A stretch of 64,000 bases of DNA from Kitasatospora sp. NBC_01246. Its GTDB lineage: Bacteria > Actinomycetota > Actinomycetes > Streptomycetales > Streptomycetaceae. Of this stretch, positions 43,469-59,162 are shown piece by piece (within the stretch, counting starts at the first letter, position 1; each line of letters starts with the position of its first letter). The translations under genes were made by a program, and so were the position numbers. The notes beneath the pieces were generated by a model, which saw only the letters and a program-made list of their open reading frames with translations, did no database searches and was not told where the DNA came from. The DNA is taken from contig NZ_CP108484.1 of NCBI RefSeq assembly GCF_036226505.1, positions 3,348,001 through 3,412,000 of the forward strand, given 5' to 3'.

Positions 43469-43783
43469 TCAGTGCAGCACCTTGAGGCCCACCACGCCGG
43501 AGACGATCAGCAGCAGGCAGCCGATCCGCGCCGCGGTGACCGCGTCCCCCAGGACGGCCATGCCGTAGAGCGCCGTACCGACCGCGCCGATGCCGACCCA
43601 GACCGCGTAGCCGGTGCCGATCGGGATGGAGCGCATCGCGTACGCCAGACCGCCCATGCTGAGCGCCAGCGCGACGGCGAAGACCACGGTGGGGACGAGC
43701 CGGGAGAAGCCCTTGGACGAGTCCAGGGCCACCGCCCAGACGGTCTCCAGGACACCGGAGACGATGAGAACGAGCCATGCCAT
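43469..43783 (-). CDS. gdx: SMR guanidinium exporter (SugE/Gdx type)
   Basis: A 104-residue four-helix small multidrug resistance protein. The essential Glu14 is in SGVLETVWAVALDSSKGFSRL, which matches the SugE/Gdx subgroup rather than EmrE (GFSRL and WVGIGAVGTALYGMAVLGD). Gdx exports guanidinium in exchange for protons. The guanidine-III riboswitch directly upstream strongly supports this function. GGAGG stands nine nt before the ATG. Confidence 0.9.
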   Translation of the reverse strand: MAWLVLIVSGVLETVWAVALDSSKGFSRLVPTVVFAVALALSMGGLAYAMRSIPIGTGYAVWVGIGAVGTALYGMAVLGDAVTAARIGCLLLIVSGVVGLKVLH

Positions 43784-43829
43784 GACGAGGGACCTCCGCA
43801 GTCAGCAGCGGCCGGGTTGCCGCCGTGCT

Positions 43830-43869
43830 GCGCCGTCTTGTCGTCACCGGGTACGACGCGCTCGTCCGG
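43830..43869 (-). promoter_or_regulatory. Guanidine-III (ykkC-III) riboswitch for gdx
   Basis: Read on the minus strand, this segment begins CCGGACGAGCGCG, has GTACCCGG in the middle and ends ACAAGACGGCGC. These are the near-invariant words of the guanidine-III (ykkC-III, mini-type) riboswitch, which turns on guanidinium exporters when guanidine binds. It lies 46 nt upstream of the SMR start. The next nucleotides (about 43803-43829) can fold into a stem that may sequester or release the ribosome-binding site at 43792-43797. I know this class from memory; covariation was not computed. Confidence 0.85.
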
Positions 43870-43938
43870 AGTGGCCGGAGTCCGGCCACCTGCTTTCGAC
43901 GGTAGCACGACCCGCCACACAGAATTTACACAAGGACA

Positions 43939-43968
43939 TTGACGGGCCGCCCGCCATTCCGCGAAGAT
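43939..43968 (+). promoter_or_regulatory. Promoter-like element before the Cys-rich micro-ORF
   Basis: TTGACG (43939-43944) and GAAGAT (43963-43968) are separated by 18 nt. They fit a sigma-70/HrdB-like promoter whose transcript would begin around 43975 and carry the micro-ORF and tRNA-Cys. Confidence 0.5.
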
Positions 43969-44006
43969 GAATTCACCAACACGGCGAACGACGACAGGAG
44001 TCGGCA

Positions 44007-44099
44007 ATGGACAGGAAGACGGTGGCCCTTCTCGCGCCCCGCGCCTGTGCCGCGGCTCCCCGGTGTTGTCGCGCCTGTCGCTGTTGCCGCCACGCCTGA
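44007..44099 (+). CDS. Cysteine-rich micro-ORF in front of tRNA-Cys
   Basis: A 30-residue ORF starting MDRKTVALLAPRAC and ending CCRACRCCRHA, with six Cys at positions 14, 20, 21, 24, 26 and 27. AGGAG lies six nt before the ATG. Five of the six Cys codons are TGT, which is unusual in a genome where TGC should dominate. It ends at 44099, 27 nt before the tRNA-Cys gene on the same strand. A hairpin can form between 44081-44090 and 44108-44116; it includes the last two Cys codons (tgt tgc, 44082-44087) and puts the stop codon in its loop. This resembles an attenuator leader. Whether the peptide itself does anything is unknown. Confidence 0.6.
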   Translation: MDRKTVALLAPRACAAAPRCCRACRCCRHA

Positions 44100-44126
44100 G
44101 CGCATCTGCGGAACAGCTCCTCCCAC

Positions 44127-44201
44127 GGCCGTGTGCCCGAGTGGTTTAGGGAACCGCCTGCAAAGCGGTTTACACGGGTTCGATTCCCGTCATGGCCTCC
44201 A
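44127..44201 (+). tRNA. tRNA-Cys (GCA)
   Basis: A full cloverleaf. The acceptor stem is GGCCGTG/CATGGCC (one G-T wobble), the D arm contains GAGTGGTTTAG, the anticodon stem is ACCGC/GCGGT with loop CTGCAAA, giving anticodon GCA at 44160-44162, and the T arm is ACGGG-TTCGATT-CCCGT. The CCA end is encoded (44199-44201). It lies just after the Cys-rich micro-ORF and before a terminator. Confidence 0.95.
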
Positions 44202-44214
44202 CCGAAATGAATGC

Positions 44215-44243
44215 GCCGGTCCGCGAAGAATTCGCGGACCGGC
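44215..44243 (+). terminator. Terminator after tRNA-Cys
   Basis: A 12-bp perfect stem (44215-44226 and 44232-44243) with a 5-nt loop, followed by TGTTCGGCGTT. It lies 13 nt beyond the CCA. Confidence 0.7.
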
Positions 44244-44307
44244 TGTTCGGCGTTCTCCCGGCCGGATATTCCGGGCCCCGGAATACCGTCGGGAATTCAC
44301 CCCGGGG

Positions 44308-44330
44308 GCGGGGCGGGTGCCCCGCCCCGC
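44308..44330 (-). terminator. Terminator of the molybdenum hydroxylase operon
   Basis: A 10-bp GC-only stem (44308-44317, 44321-44330) with a 3-nt loop just after the operon's last stop codon. Confidence 0.6.
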
Positions 44331-44332
44331 GG

Positions 44333-46660
44333 TCAGCCGGCGACGGCGTCCTCGGGCCGGATCGGCAGCCGCCCGACGGGCAGGCCGGTCGCGGCCCGGA
44401 CGGCGGCGGCCACGGCGGCCGGGGCGACCACCGCGGGGGCCGCGCTGACCGCCTTGGCACCGAAGGTGGCGACCACGTCGCGCTCCTCGACCAGGGCGGC
44501 GATGCGGACCTCCGGGGTGTCCAGGGCGGTCGGCAGCCGGTAGCCGGTGAGCGAGGGGTTCAGCAGCAGGCCGCCCTCGGTGCGCAGGTCCTCCAGCAGC
44601 GCCAGCCCAACGCCCTGGGCCACGCCCGCCTCGATCCGGTCCTCGATCTGACGCGGGTTGAGCGCCCGGCCCACGTCCTGGGCCACCGTCACGTCCACCA
44701 CCCGGACCGCGCCCAGCTCGATGTCCACGTCCACCACCGCGCGCATCGCGCAGAACGCGATGGAGACGAAGGCGTCACCGTGCCCGGCCTCGTCCAGCGG
44801 CTCGGTCGGGTGCGGGCGGCACTGCGCGGTCGCCCAGAGCTCCTTGCCCTCCAGCGCCTCGGCGACCGGCATACCGAGCACGCCGTCGTAGGAGGTGATC
44901 TTTCCGTCGGAGATCTGCAGCAGCTCGACCGACATCCCGAAGTCGGCGGCGATCGGCTGGAGCAACTGGTGGCGGACCATCAGCGCGGCCCGCTCGACCG
45001 CGCCGCCGGAGACCCAGGTGTGCCGGCCCCGGGCGGCGGGCCCGGCGATCGACTGGTCGCTGTCGGCCGGTGCGATGTAGACCTCGTTGATCCCCAGCAC
45101 CGACTGCACGATCTGCCGCGCCAGGGTGGCGAAGCCCTGCCCGGAGTCGACGGCGGCGCAGATCACCGTGGCGTGGTCGCCGCTGACCCGCACCGTCGCG
45201 GTGGAGACCTCGTCCTCGCCCTCGGCGCCCAGCATGTGCACCATGCCGACCGCGTAGCCGATGCCGCGGCGCACCGCCGCCGGGTCGCCGGCCCCGCCGG
45301 GCCCGCCCGGCAGCAGCCACTCGGCGTCCGGGTCGTCCACCGGCAGCGGGGGCAGCGGCTCCTCGGCGACCGCGTCCAGCAGCGCGGCCACCGGCGCGGG
45401 GCAGGTGACGGCCTGTCCGGTGGGCATCGGGTCTCCGGTCGCCATCGCGTTGCGCCGACGGATCTCCACCGGGTCCACGCCGACCCGGGCCGCCAGCTGG
45501 TCCAGCTGCGACTCGTAGGCGAAGCAGGCCTGCAGGGCGCCCTCGCCGCGCATCCGGCCGGCCGGCGGGTTGTTGGTGCGCACCGCCCAGGCGTCCACGA
45601 AGACGTTCGGGCAGACGTAGGGCCCGACCGAGAAGGCGGTGGCGGCGGCCAGCGCCTCGGCCGAGACATCCGCGTAGGCGCCGCCGTCCAGCAGGATCTG
45701 CGCCTCCACCTTGACCAGCTTGCCCTCGGCGTCGGCGTGGTGGCGGTAGCGCAGCAGCGCCGGGTGGCGGGAGGTGTGGGTGTGGAACGACTCCTCGCGG
45801 GTGAGGGTCATCTTCACCGGGCGGCCGGTGCGCAGCGCCAGCAGCGCCAGGGTCACCTGGAAGGAGAGGTCCTCGCGGTCCGAGGTGGCGCCGGGCACGC
45901 CGGTGACCACCAGTCGGACCCGGTCCGGCTCCAGGCCGAGGCAGGCGGCGGTGCGGTCGCGGTCGCCGTGCGGGTCGGTGGACGACAGGTGCAGTTCGAC
46001 GCCGCCGTCCGGGCGCGGCACGGCCAGACCGGCCTCCGCGCCGAGCGGCGCCGGGTCCTGGCGGCCGACCTGGTAGAGGCCCTCGACGATGACCTCGCCG
46101 GCCGCGTCCGGGTCCCCGGTGCGCAGCGGCAGGTGCCGGAAGAGGTTGCCGTCCGGGTGCAGCGGGCCGGCGGTGAAGGCCTGCTCGGGATCGGTCACCG
46201 CCTCCAGCGGCTCGTACTCGACGGTGATCAGACCGACCGCCAGCCGGGCGGTGTCCGGGTGGTCGGCGGCGACCGCGGCGACCGGCTCGCCGTGGTGGCG
46301 CACCACACCGGCGGCCAGCACCGGCCGGTCCGCGACGATCGGCCCGGCCGGGGCGCCGTCGGGGGTGCCGTCCGGCCCGGGCGGCAGGTCGGCGGAGGTG
46401 ACCACCGCGTGCACGCCCGGCAGCGCGAGCGCGGCCGAGGTGTCGATGCCCCTGATCCGGGCGTGCGGGTGCGGGGAGCGCAGCACCGCGCCCCAGAGCA
46501 GGCCCTCGGCCCAGAGGTCGGCGGCGTACGGGTAGATGCCGAGCGCCTTCGGCAGGGCGTCGCTGCGCAGCGGGGAGCTGCCCAGCCCGAACGGCTCCCG
46601 TGCGCCGCCCTCGTCGCCGTCCTGCTGGGGTGCTGCGCCGATGTCGGTAGGCGACGTCAT
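44333..46660 (-). CDS. Xanthine dehydrogenase family molybdopterin-binding subunit
   Basis: A 775-residue large subunit of the xanthine dehydrogenase/aldehyde oxidase family. Recognisable blocks include YAADLWAEGLLWGAVLRSPHPHARI, VTSADLPPG, HHGEPVAAVAADHPDTARLAV, RMRGEGALQACFAYESQLD and QDVGRALNPRQIEDRIEAGVAQG. The C-terminal segment where the family usually has a GxGE(P/S) catalytic glutamate reads FGAKAVSAAPAVVAP. If that alignment is right the base needed for hydroxylation is absent. The ATG overlaps the stop of the 2Fe-2S subunit gene (ATGA). Substrate not inferable. Confidence 0.8.
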   Translation of the reverse strand: MTSPTDIGAAPQQDGDEGGAREPFGLGSSPLRSDALPKALGIYPYAADLWAEGLLWGAVLRSPHPHARIRGIDTSAALALPGVHAVVTSADLPPGPDGTPDGAPAGPIVADRPVLAAGVVRHHGEPVAAVAADHPDTARLAVGLITVEYEPLEAVTDPEQAFTAGPLHPDGNLFRHLPLRTGDPDAAGEVIVEGLYQVGRQDPAPLGAEAGLAVPRPDGGVELHLSSTDPHGDRDRTAACLGLEPDRVRLVVTGVPGATSDREDLSFQVTLALLALRTGRPVKMTLTREESFHTHTSRHPALLRYRHHADAEGKLVKVEAQILLDGGAYADVSAEALAAATAFSVGPYVCPNVFVDAWAVRTNNPPAGRMRGEGALQACFAYESQLDQLAARVGVDPVEIRRRNAMATGDPMPTGQAVTCPAPVAALLDAVAEEPLPPLPVDDPDAEWLLPGGPGGAGDPAAVRRGIGYAVGMVHMLGAEGEDEVSTATVRVSGDHATVICAAVDSGQGFATLARQIVQSVLGINEVYIAPADSDQSIAGPAARGRHTWVSGGAVERAALMVRHQLLQPIAADFGMSVELLQISDGKITSYDGVLGMPVAEALEGKELWATAQCRPHPTEPLDEAGHGDAFVSIAFCAMRAVVDVDIELGAVRVVDVTVAQDVGRALNPRQIEDRIEAGVAQGVGLALLEDLRTEGGLLLNPSLTGYRLPTALDTPEVRIAALVEERDVVATFGAKAVSAAPAVVAPAAVAAAVRAATGLPVGRLPIRPEDAVAG

Positions 46661-47916
46661 GATGCGTGGTCGTCCTCGGGGAGCCGGATGCCGTGGGCGG
46701 GGGTGGCACCGTACGGGACGCCGGCGGGGGCGACGCCCTCGACCGGGACCCCGTGCGGGGGCGTGTGCGCGTACGGCGTGCCGTGGGCGGGCGTGCCGTC
46801 GTACCCGGCCCCGTTCGGGGCCGTGCCGTCGAACCCGCCGCCGGGGGCCGGGATGCCGTGCGCCGGGGTCTGCTCGTAGACCGGGCCGTCGTACGGGGAG
46901 GCGTCGTAGCCGGACTGCTGCGGGTAGCCCCCGTCCGGGTAGCCGCCGGGCAGGTAGCCGCCGGGTGCGGGGGCGCCCTGGTAGGGCTGTTGCTCGGGGT
47001 AGCCCTGCGGCGGGTAGTAGCCCTGCCCCTCGCCGGCCGCCTGGGCGGGGATGCCGGTGACGGGGGTGAGCACCGCGGTGTCGTACACGCCGGTGTCGTA
47101 GCCGCCGTGGCCGTCGGGGCTGCCGTAGGGCACGCCCGGGCCCGCCCCGCCGGTGGCCGGGGCCTCCTCGACGGGCGGCTGCGGGGCGTGCGGCTGCGAG
47201 CCGTGCGACTGCGGGACGTGCTCGATCCAGGCGTCGGCGTCGGTGTAGACCGGCAGGTCGGCGGCCCGGGCGGCCGGCTCGGGCGCCGGTGCCCCGCCCG
47301 CGGGGGCGTCGCCGGCGGGCGCGGCCGCTCCGGCGGCCGCCGCGTGGGCCTCCTCCGCCTCCTCGGCCTCCAGGGCGCGGGCGTCGGCGACGGACTGCAC
47401 CGCGGCCAGCACGCCCCGGTAGCCGGTGCAGCGGCAGAGGTTGCCGCAGAGCGCCTGGCGGGCCTCGACCTCGGTGGGCCGGTGGTTGCGCTGGAGCAGG
47501 TCGTGCACGGCCATCGCCATGCCGGGCGTGCAGTAGCCGCACTGCACCGCGCCGGACTCGGCCAGCGCCTGCTGGACCTCGCTGGCGCCGCCGCCGGCCG
47601 AGAGGCCCTCGACGGTGTTGATCTCGCTGTCCGCGGCCAGCGCGGCGGGCACCAGGCAGCCGGCCACCAGCTGGCCGTCCACCTGGACCGAGCAGGCGCC
47701 GCACTCGCCCTGCTCGCAGCCGTCCTTGGCGCCGGCCAGCCCGAGCCGCTCGCGCAGCACGTACAGCAGGCTCTCGCCGATCCAGGCGTCGGTGACGGGC
47801 CGTTCGAATCCGTTGACCCGCAGGGTGTACGAGGCGCAGGGGCGCAGCTCGCGGCTGACCTGCGGCGCGTGGTCGAACGGGCCGGCGTCGAGGGTTCCGA
47901 TGGGGTCAGTGGTCAC
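46657..47916 (-). CDS. 2Fe-2S subunit of molybdenum hydroxylase with long repetitive tail
   Basis: A 419-residue protein. The first 180 residues are a normal CoxS/XdhC-type small subunit, with a plant-type ferredoxin cluster (CEQGECGACSVQVDGQLVAGC) and the second all-helical cluster (CGYCTPGM and CGNLCRCTGYR). The remaining 240 residues are a Pro/Gly/Tyr/Ala-rich repetitive tail (GGYLPGGYPDGGYPQQSGYD, TPAHGIPAPGGG). Such a tail is far beyond the family's usual 160-180 residues. The GTG start overlaps the upstream FAD-subunit stop as GTGA. Confidence 0.83.
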   Translation of the reverse strand: MTTDPIGTLDAGPFDHAPQVSRELRPCASYTLRVNGFERPVTDAWIGESLLYVLRERLGLAGAKDGCEQGECGACSVQVDGQLVAGCLVPAALAADSEINTVEGLSAGGGASEVQQALAESGAVQCGYCTPGMAMAVHDLLQRNHRPTEVEARQALCGNLCRCTGYRGVLAAVQSVADARALEAEEAEEAHAAAAGAAAPAGDAPAGGAPAPEPAARAADLPVYTDADAWIEHVPQSHGSQPHAPQPPVEEAPATGGAGPGVPYGSPDGHGGYDTGVYDTAVLTPVTGIPAQAAGEGQGYYPPQGYPEQQPYQGAPAPGGYLPGGYPDGGYPQQSGYDASPYDGPVYEQTPAHGIPAPGGGFDGTAPNGAGYDGTPAHGTPYAHTPPHGVPVEGVAPAGVPYGATPAHGIRLPEDDHAS

Positions 47917-58780: not shown

Positions 58781-59162
58781 TGGTGGAGATGCCGGGAATC
58801 GAACCCGGGTCCAGTGGAGTGGATTCAGGACTTCTCCGAGCGCAGTCCGCTGTGATTTTCTCGGCCCTGGCGGTCACGCGGACAAGCCGCCAACAGGCCC
58901 AGCTGCTGTTTGATTTCCCCTCCACCCCCGCAGCCCGGGTGGACGGTTGAGTTCCCTAGATTATGCCAGGGTCCGGGTCGGGAACTCCCCGGTCTGACAC
59001 CCAAGCGCTATCGGTGCTTATTAGGCAGCGAGAGCGAACTGCTGGGAATCGCGCTTAGAGTTGGCGATTATTTGTTTGCGACAGATGGTTAACGAGATCA
59101 TTGCCGCGTTCCTCGGCTCGCTTCTCCTGTTTCGACTTCCCCTGTCGAAACCGATCATCCCC
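58781..59162 (-). ncRNA. ssrA: Transfer-messenger RNA (tmRNA)
   Basis: Read on the minus strand the RNA begins GGGGATGATCGGTTTCGAC and ends in a T-arm (GGTTCGATTCCCGGC) and CATCTCCACCA, with a GGGGATG/CATCTCC acceptor stem. The resume frame encodes ANSKRDSQQFALAA followed by TAA-TAA (coding 59024-59065). The ALAA end is the ClpP degradation signal. smpB lies 110 nt upstream on the same strand, as usual in actinobacteria. Confidence 0.95.

Follow-up and report, generated by a model that had tools for sequence, protein, structure and literature searches.

A Cys-rich leader ORF before a second tRNA-Cys gene in Kitasatospora: likely leader-peptide control of a tRNA

Leader-peptide attenuation is an old principle, and actinobacterial cysteine leaders are known from positions before protein genes. 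The leader ORFs of cys operons in mycobacteria and other actinobacteria are short, carry runs of Cys codons near the stop codon and have no obvious terminator, and an action of Rho has been proposed for them (PMC1262725, in the part of the text available). The ORF described here resembles them in all of these respects, Rho again being suggested, but it precedes a tRNA gene whereas theirs precede protein-coding cysteine genes (same source, same part). Furthermore, it is led by a Shine-Dalgarno (SD) sequence, whereas the mycobacterial ORFs are "leaderless" by the title of Canestrari et al. (2020), a paper cited in the available part of PMC13236596.

Attenuators are also known at aminoacyl-tRNA synthetase genes, namely pheST in gamma-proteobacteria and trpS and leuS in Streptomyces (PMC1262725, same part). 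As far as they are described there, they share with the present leader the proposed stalling on cognate codons that controls the charging machinery; their output, however, is a synthetase and not the tRNA itself, and the classical terminator and antiterminator were not found at the leader in the window, which is the whole stretch of 64,000 nucleotides of Kitasatospora DNA analysed in this study. T-box riboswitches likewise couple tRNA charging to expression, but Rfam matched none in the window leader at the gathering threshold, and the regulated RNA would here be a tRNA.

Leaders of the tnaC type are Rho-dependent. They are mentioned in the available part of PMC1262725 and resemble the scheme proposed here, in which a ribosome at the end of the ORF would likewise keep a Rho-loading site covered. 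The difference lies in the signal, as tnaC senses free tryptophan through its nascent peptide (PMC8429421, in the part available), whereas the window leader is proposed to sense codon hunger.

A full-text literature search, judged by titles and the first lines of abstracts and with subscription literature lying mostly outside it, gave no report of a leader peptide before a tRNA gene among the matches listed. In bacteria, the output of tRNA genes is for the most part attributed to promoter strength, growth rate and stringent control. If the reading put forward here is true, a leader whose codons tRNA-Cys reads would feed back on a stable RNA directly, at the level of codons.

The leader ORF, its promoter and tRNA-Cys2

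An earlier reading of the window, made from its sequence alone, had pointed to a 30-codon ORF with six Cys codons and an AGGAG SD, ending 27 nt before a tRNA-Cys gene, and every one of these traits was confirmed. The ORF encodes the peptide MDRKTVALLAPRACAAAPRCCRACRCCRHA, and four of its six Cys lie within the last 11 residues. ORF and tRNA are on one strand, in the attenuator-like order of a short SD-led ORF upstream of its presumed target. The features of the locus are as follows.

43939-43968, plus strand: promoter core TTGACG-N18-GAAGAT, followed by the conserved GAATTCACC; backed by conservation
43996-44000, plus strand: SD sequence AGGAG, with the start codon ATG six nt further on
44007-44099, plus strand: leader ORF of 30 codons with six Cys; stop codon TGA at 44097-44099
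44046-44084, plus strand: stretch holding the Cys codons (codons 14, 19, 20, 23, 25 and 26), five TGT and then one TGC
44080-44117, plus strand: predicted hairpin with arms 44080-44090 and 44108-44117, its 5' arm taking up the final two Cys codons and its loop the stop codon
44100-44126, plus strand: C-rich, G-poor stretch (12 C, 6 G), a candidate Rho-loading or shielding segment
44127-44201, plus strand: second tRNA-Cys gene (GCA), tRNA-Cys2, with CCA encoded; presumed target
44215-44243, plus strand: GC-rich hairpin after the tRNA, a possible transcript end

The element at 43939-43968 had been noted as promoter-like in the same reading, and it is the conservation of its columns that supports it, not the generic sigma-70 scan, which gave zero promoters over 43500-44700, this element included. 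The core was found before 57 of the 60 leaders kept for analysis (see below), the exceptions being L045, L129 and L085, in the last of which it is visible by eye though missed by the rule. In 17 of the 70 genomes of the genus the core directly abuts the tRNA, its -35 starting 38-39 nt before the gene in 16 of these 17 and the final bases before the tRNA being GAATTCACT in 15 of those 16. Since the same promoter is fused to the tRNA in relatives without a leader, the upstream promoter appears to be the tRNA's own, and the ORF would thus sit on the tRNA transcript in leader-bearing genomes. Passage of the transcript of the 43939-43968 promoter through the leader ORF is supported by this comparison, and that transcript would then carry tRNA-Cys as well. 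In eight relatives with a TTGAC motif at a distance of 22-43 nt upstream of the tRNA, a second promoter may lie close to the gene; none of these motifs has a -10 meeting the promoter rule, and the motif is absent from the window.

The hairpin behind the tRNA had been called a terminator. The hairpin itself is present, though in the scan its T-run was scored for the minus strand. By eye, comparable inverted repeats stand behind the tRNA at many of the listed loci.

In a genome of 8.93 Mb with 71 tRNA matches, the other tRNA-Cys differs in sequence from tRNA-Cys2, lies in a Gly-Cys-Val cluster and has no Cys ORF before it. All 60 same-genus genomes searched matched tRNA-Cys2 strongly (best E 2.9e-18 or lower), the copy in one of them (G011) being decayed. 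The tRNA-Cys2 pattern hit 58 stretches in the collection of named genomes but only three of 394 genomes sampled across the class, the window genome among them, so that it is best regarded as a local second tRNA-Cys. A weak match on contig C3 was dropped as GC-rich sequence containing no tRNA. Tandem tRNA-Cys genes were observed behind one leader at two loci, with three genes so called at L049 and two at L086. In the genus genome G053 the leader precedes three tandem genes called tRNA-Cys, and a fourth copy elsewhere has no leader.

As for the surroundings, the minus strand upstream of the leader carries a Guanidine-III riboswitch (43827-43892; Rfam, gathering threshold). It precedes a minus-strand ORF of 104 codons (43469-43783), divergent from the leader, which we take to be an SMR exporter, and by a string motif the riboswitch is kept in 16 of the 17 genus loci where the promoter abuts the tRNA. 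Downstream of tRNA-Cys a long minus-strand ORF occupies 44333-47704, and no plus-strand protein gene was seen close behind the tRNA in the window. The Rfam scan of the window at the gathering threshold gave only tmRNA, Guanidine-III and tRNA, with none in the leader; the tmRNA gene is on the minus strand at 58781-59162 and has the tag ANSKRDSQQFALAA.

Occurrence among relatives

Leaders were recognized as SD-led ORFs starting with ATG or GTG and ending before the tRNA, within 250 nt of it, that contain two or more Cys and have a Cys share above 10%. Sixty-three loci satisfied this rule, and three were dropped to leave 60 distinct leaders: L043, where the ORF had been mis-chosen and the real one holds a single Cys by eye, and two second tRNA copies behind a leader already counted. 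A Streptacidiphilus leader (L108/L154) with an apparent one-base frameshift was left out; its genome is 76% complete, and a sequencing error is possible.

The genus is represented by 70 genomes, and in 50 of them an SD-led ORF containing two to nine Cys stands between promoter and tRNA-Cys2. A further 17 have the TTGAC promoter directly on the tRNA and no leader, and the other three have, respectively, a one-Cys ORF read by eye (G050), a short leader without an ORF (G022), and a tRNA not called by ARAGORN with no ORF seen (G011). The last of these, at about 511-585 of L060, looks like a decayed tRNA-Cys2 behind a short leader. A pattern made from the start of the leader gave 40 matches in 37 of the 70 genomes, 26 at the tRNA-Cys2 locus and 14 elsewhere.

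Ten more leaders were found in other genera. The tRNA is present in 13 of 14 genomes of Streptacidiphilus, six with a leader, one with the frameshifted leader and six without, and leader and tRNA occur together in two of three genomes of Peterkaempfera, one of them with two tandem tRNA copies. Among eight named loci that we take to be of the family Streptosporangiaceae there are two leaders, one of them with a visibly similar promoter. They lie 235 and 215 nt from the tRNA, and these long distances, like the mere 11 and 12 nt of two other leaders, count against the control scheme proposed below. Five Streptomyces-named loci do not duplicate genus loci (L075, L079, L087, L103 and L117), and none of them has a leader by the rule, L075 having an SD-led ORF with three Cys in 42 residues, below the 10% limit. 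The range over which the leader had been expected thus held for Kitasatospora and Streptacidiphilus, with Peterkaempfera and two Streptosporangiaceae-type loci added, and did not hold for these five Streptomyces-named loci.

A leader without conserved ORF or Cys codons in relatives would have spoken against the original proposal; conservation was found instead. The leader is nevertheless dispensable, because 17 of the 70 genus genomes and six of the 14 Streptacidiphilus genomes have the tRNA without it, and natural relatives with and without a leader offer ready-made comparisons. An origin from phage or other mobile elements was rejected, with no match in 50,697 phage records and none in viral contigs.

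Proposed ribosome stalling and the sequence after the stop codon

The conservation of the leader, its enrichment in Cys and TGT, its specificity within the genome and the loci of a second family (the last three treated below) together make it likely that tRNA-Cys2 is under leader-peptide control, with the ORF very probably acting as the sensor. Transcription would start behind the promoter at 43939-43968, pass the 30-codon ORF and enter tRNA-Cys, while ribosomes would load at AGGAG and translate the leader. When Cys-tRNA is plentiful, they would reach the stop codon and leave, exposing the C-rich, G-poor stretch, and transcription would be cut short before the tRNA, most likely by Rho. When Cys-tRNA is scarce, ribosomes would stall on the rare TGT codons by the stop and shield the stretch, the polymerase would continue into the tRNA, and more tRNA-Cys would be made. 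That the leader is translated and co-transcribed with the tRNA, that the response runs in this direction and that Rho is the effector, we infer. It may be objected to leader control that extra tRNA is no help when cysteine itself is short; if the scheme is true, the need for more tRNA-Cys at low Cys-tRNA might come from a shortage of the tRNA, from tRNA damage or from a special role of tRNA-Cys2.

The excess of C over G after the stop averages 0.27 in the 60 leaders compared with 0.008 upstream of 70 other tRNA genes, the kinship of the leaders being uncorrected in this comparison. A C-rich stretch behind Cys codons that crowd at the stop fits a Rho-loading site shielded by the ribosome, and it suggests attenuation of the Rho type. 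That stalling shields the stretch after the stop, with Rho as the likeliest but not a required agent, is in our view fairly probable; the stricter version in which Rho is required is a tentative one that we would sooner doubt than accept.

Two other routes from leader to tRNA were tried and rejected. No U-tract intrinsic terminator, and so no terminator of the trp type, was found on the plus strand between 43500 and 44700, and a classical antiterminator formed by the Cys-codon region and the post-stop hairpin paired no better in native than in swapped combinations, in sets of nine and 23 leaders (p 0.46 and 0.97, respectively, for the 5' arm and 0.78 and 0.86 for the 3' arm). Mispairing between leader and tRNA was the other. 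For many leaders a disrupted acceptor stem is predicted, but shuffled leaders disrupt it equally (mean retention 0.17 in native against 0.13, p 0.46), and in the window the stem mostly survives (0.70, or 0.97 with a longer leader).

The same sensor could instead act by changing a GC-rich hairpin that surrounds or follows the stop codon. The hairpin would serve as a terminator without a U-tract or control RNase cleavage of the pre-tRNA, and elongation or processing, not Rho, would set the output; we consider this alternative unlikely. Nine short leaders (L018, L020, L023, L028, L039, L040, L050, L056 and L096) have a covarying GC-rich hairpin that begins 2-3 nt after the stop and ends 1-5 nt before the tRNA. 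Native halves outperform swapped ones in all nine of them (0 of 5000 permutations were as good), and post-stop regions, averaged over n=58, fold better than their shuffles (mean z -1.22), which speaks for a hairpin effector. Nonetheless, a strong post-stop hairpin is absent from the window and from several of its nearest relatives (L004, L005, L006 and L009), and the only T-run among the post-stop segments listed, six T in L024, stands apart from its hairpin. The lack of conserved pairing between Cys codons and hairpin and the failure of leaders to disturb the tRNA fold beyond shuffled ones likewise count against such an effector.

A hairpin around the stop codon is the other form that this alternative could take. 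The sequence-only reading had drawn one with arms at 44081-44090 and 44108-44116 and had made its refolding the switch of the system. A hairpin is predicted almost exactly there, but the 67-nt stretch folds no better than its shuffles in the window (z -0.80). Across relatives, native arms beat swapped arms in 20 of 37 leaders (permutation p 0.0024, kinship uncorrected) and, with a wider window, in 32 of 58 (p 0.0002, kinship uncorrected). With such proportions the stop-codon hairpin was rejected as a general element and retained as a rival. For the feedback loop proposed in that reading, the leader anatomy and the retention of Cys codons stand, and the 20 of 37 leaders point only faintly to its refolding switch.

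Selection on the Cys codons and further leaders

Cys accounts for 318 of 1596 codons (19.9%) in the 60 leaders, compared with 112 of 15,176 (0.74%) in the 46 high-GC3 ORFs of the window. TGT makes up 224 of the 318 leader Cys codons (70%) and 9 of the 112 in the window ORFs (8%), which agrees with the earlier description of TGT as the rare Cys codon; it outnumbers TGC in 53 of the 60 leaders, the reverse being true in five. Elsewhere in the leaders, codons with T or C in third place have T in just 64 of 874 cases, so that the preference for T is peculiar to the Cys codons. The C-terminal half holds 280 of the 318 leader Cys.

It might be supposed that the leader is a transcribed spacer that sets processing or the basal level of the tRNA, its translation being incidental, and the relatives without a leader do indicate that the tRNA needs none. 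We regard this as quite improbable, as none of the 60 leaders has its last Cys more than five codons from the stop, and the Cys codons and the block of SD and start codon are better kept than the rest. In 30 aligned leaders the mean majority share peaks at the SD and start block (0.89) and reaches its minimum, 0.59, behind the stop. Among 18 close pairs picked by eye, 91 of 99 Cys were kept (eight were lost) compared with 293 of 361 other residues (Fisher p 0.009), and Cys is also better kept when only the residues from 12 on are counted (p 0.002). Most loci are related and the counts are not independent, and the p-values on leaders are therefore descriptive. With this kinship among loci uncorrected, the leaders show the selected run of cognate codons that is typical of an attenuator. 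The leader's placement, the retention of its Cys codons and its use of the rare codon, all claimed originally from the window, are thus supported by comparison across relatives.

A functional Cys-rich peptide that binds metals or thiols and merely shares the tRNA transcript would account for the high density of Cys and for the conservation of the first codons. It is, if anything, even less probable than a spacer. In the close pairs pN (0.088) is not below pS (0.065), suggesting that codons rather than the peptide are held; non-Cys residues, length and Cys spacing all vary, and the preference for TGT over TGC has no meaning for a peptide. Eight of the peptides gave no NCBIfam or Pfam match at cut-off (one weak NCBIfam hit, E 0.37).

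Specificity was surveyed by scanning the 250 nt upstream of each of the 71 tRNA genes for ORFs rich in the cognate residue. With an SD required, tRNA-Cys2 has six cognate residues and is the only gene with more than three; an Arg ORF with three comes next, and the rest have none or one. A functionless chance ORF can practically be dismissed: GC-rich DNA does give many ORFs, and once the SD rule is lifted, ORFs rich in a common cognate residue stand before several other tRNA genes (Gly 17, Ala 9, Leu 7). However, when the 250 nt upstream were dinucleotide-shuffled 5000 times, an SD-led ORF with six Cys arose only once, and the conservation of the leader in 50 of the 70 genus genomes makes a chance origin untenable.

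A second, apparently independent case of a leader before tRNA-Cys comes from f3, a different family of this order, of which 14 genomes were searched. Three extra tRNA-Cys genes lie there behind leader ORFs, two in genome G071 and one in G069 (L066/L208, L223/L232 and L209/L231). These ORFs start a few nt after a TTGAC promoter, as judged by eye, and each carries the motif HVDLRRQASALC, one of the three peptides having a single Cys. Against NF042934, an NCBIfam family of putative leader peptides (cis_reg_atten; cut-off 27), the three peptides score 32.3, 30.2 and 21.1, two of them thus passing, whereas the window peptide and seven other leaders scanned matched neither this family nor NF042936, the Ms4527A Cys-rich leader peptide. 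No peptide scanned reached the cut-off of NF042936, the G069 peptide (E 0.063) and a related f3 leader before a TauD gene (E 2.9e-4) both falling far below it. Leaders of the f3 type (HVDLRRQASA) also precede a TauD-type dioxygenase gene in G062, G063, G066 and G069 (L227, L228, L229 and L233; assigned by Pfam for L227 only), which fits control by sulfur. We lean, by a little, towards a closed loop in which waiting ribosomes would release transcription of tRNA-Cys2 and charging would set supply, and which would have arisen at least twice with unrelated leaders.

Other Cys leaders in the window genome were sought with two patterns, whose gap limit excludes the tRNA-Cys2 leader itself and which gave 8 and 26 matches. 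By eye, an in-frame Cys pair was present in two of them, L206 and L207, and L207 was rejected as a Cys leader, lying inside other open frames. L206 (499-555; G000:C1:6921289 region) encodes a 21-residue peptide with an in-frame Cys-Cys and is a possible further Cys leader; about 270 nt after it comes a gene that presumably encodes a luciferase-type flavin oxidoreductase.
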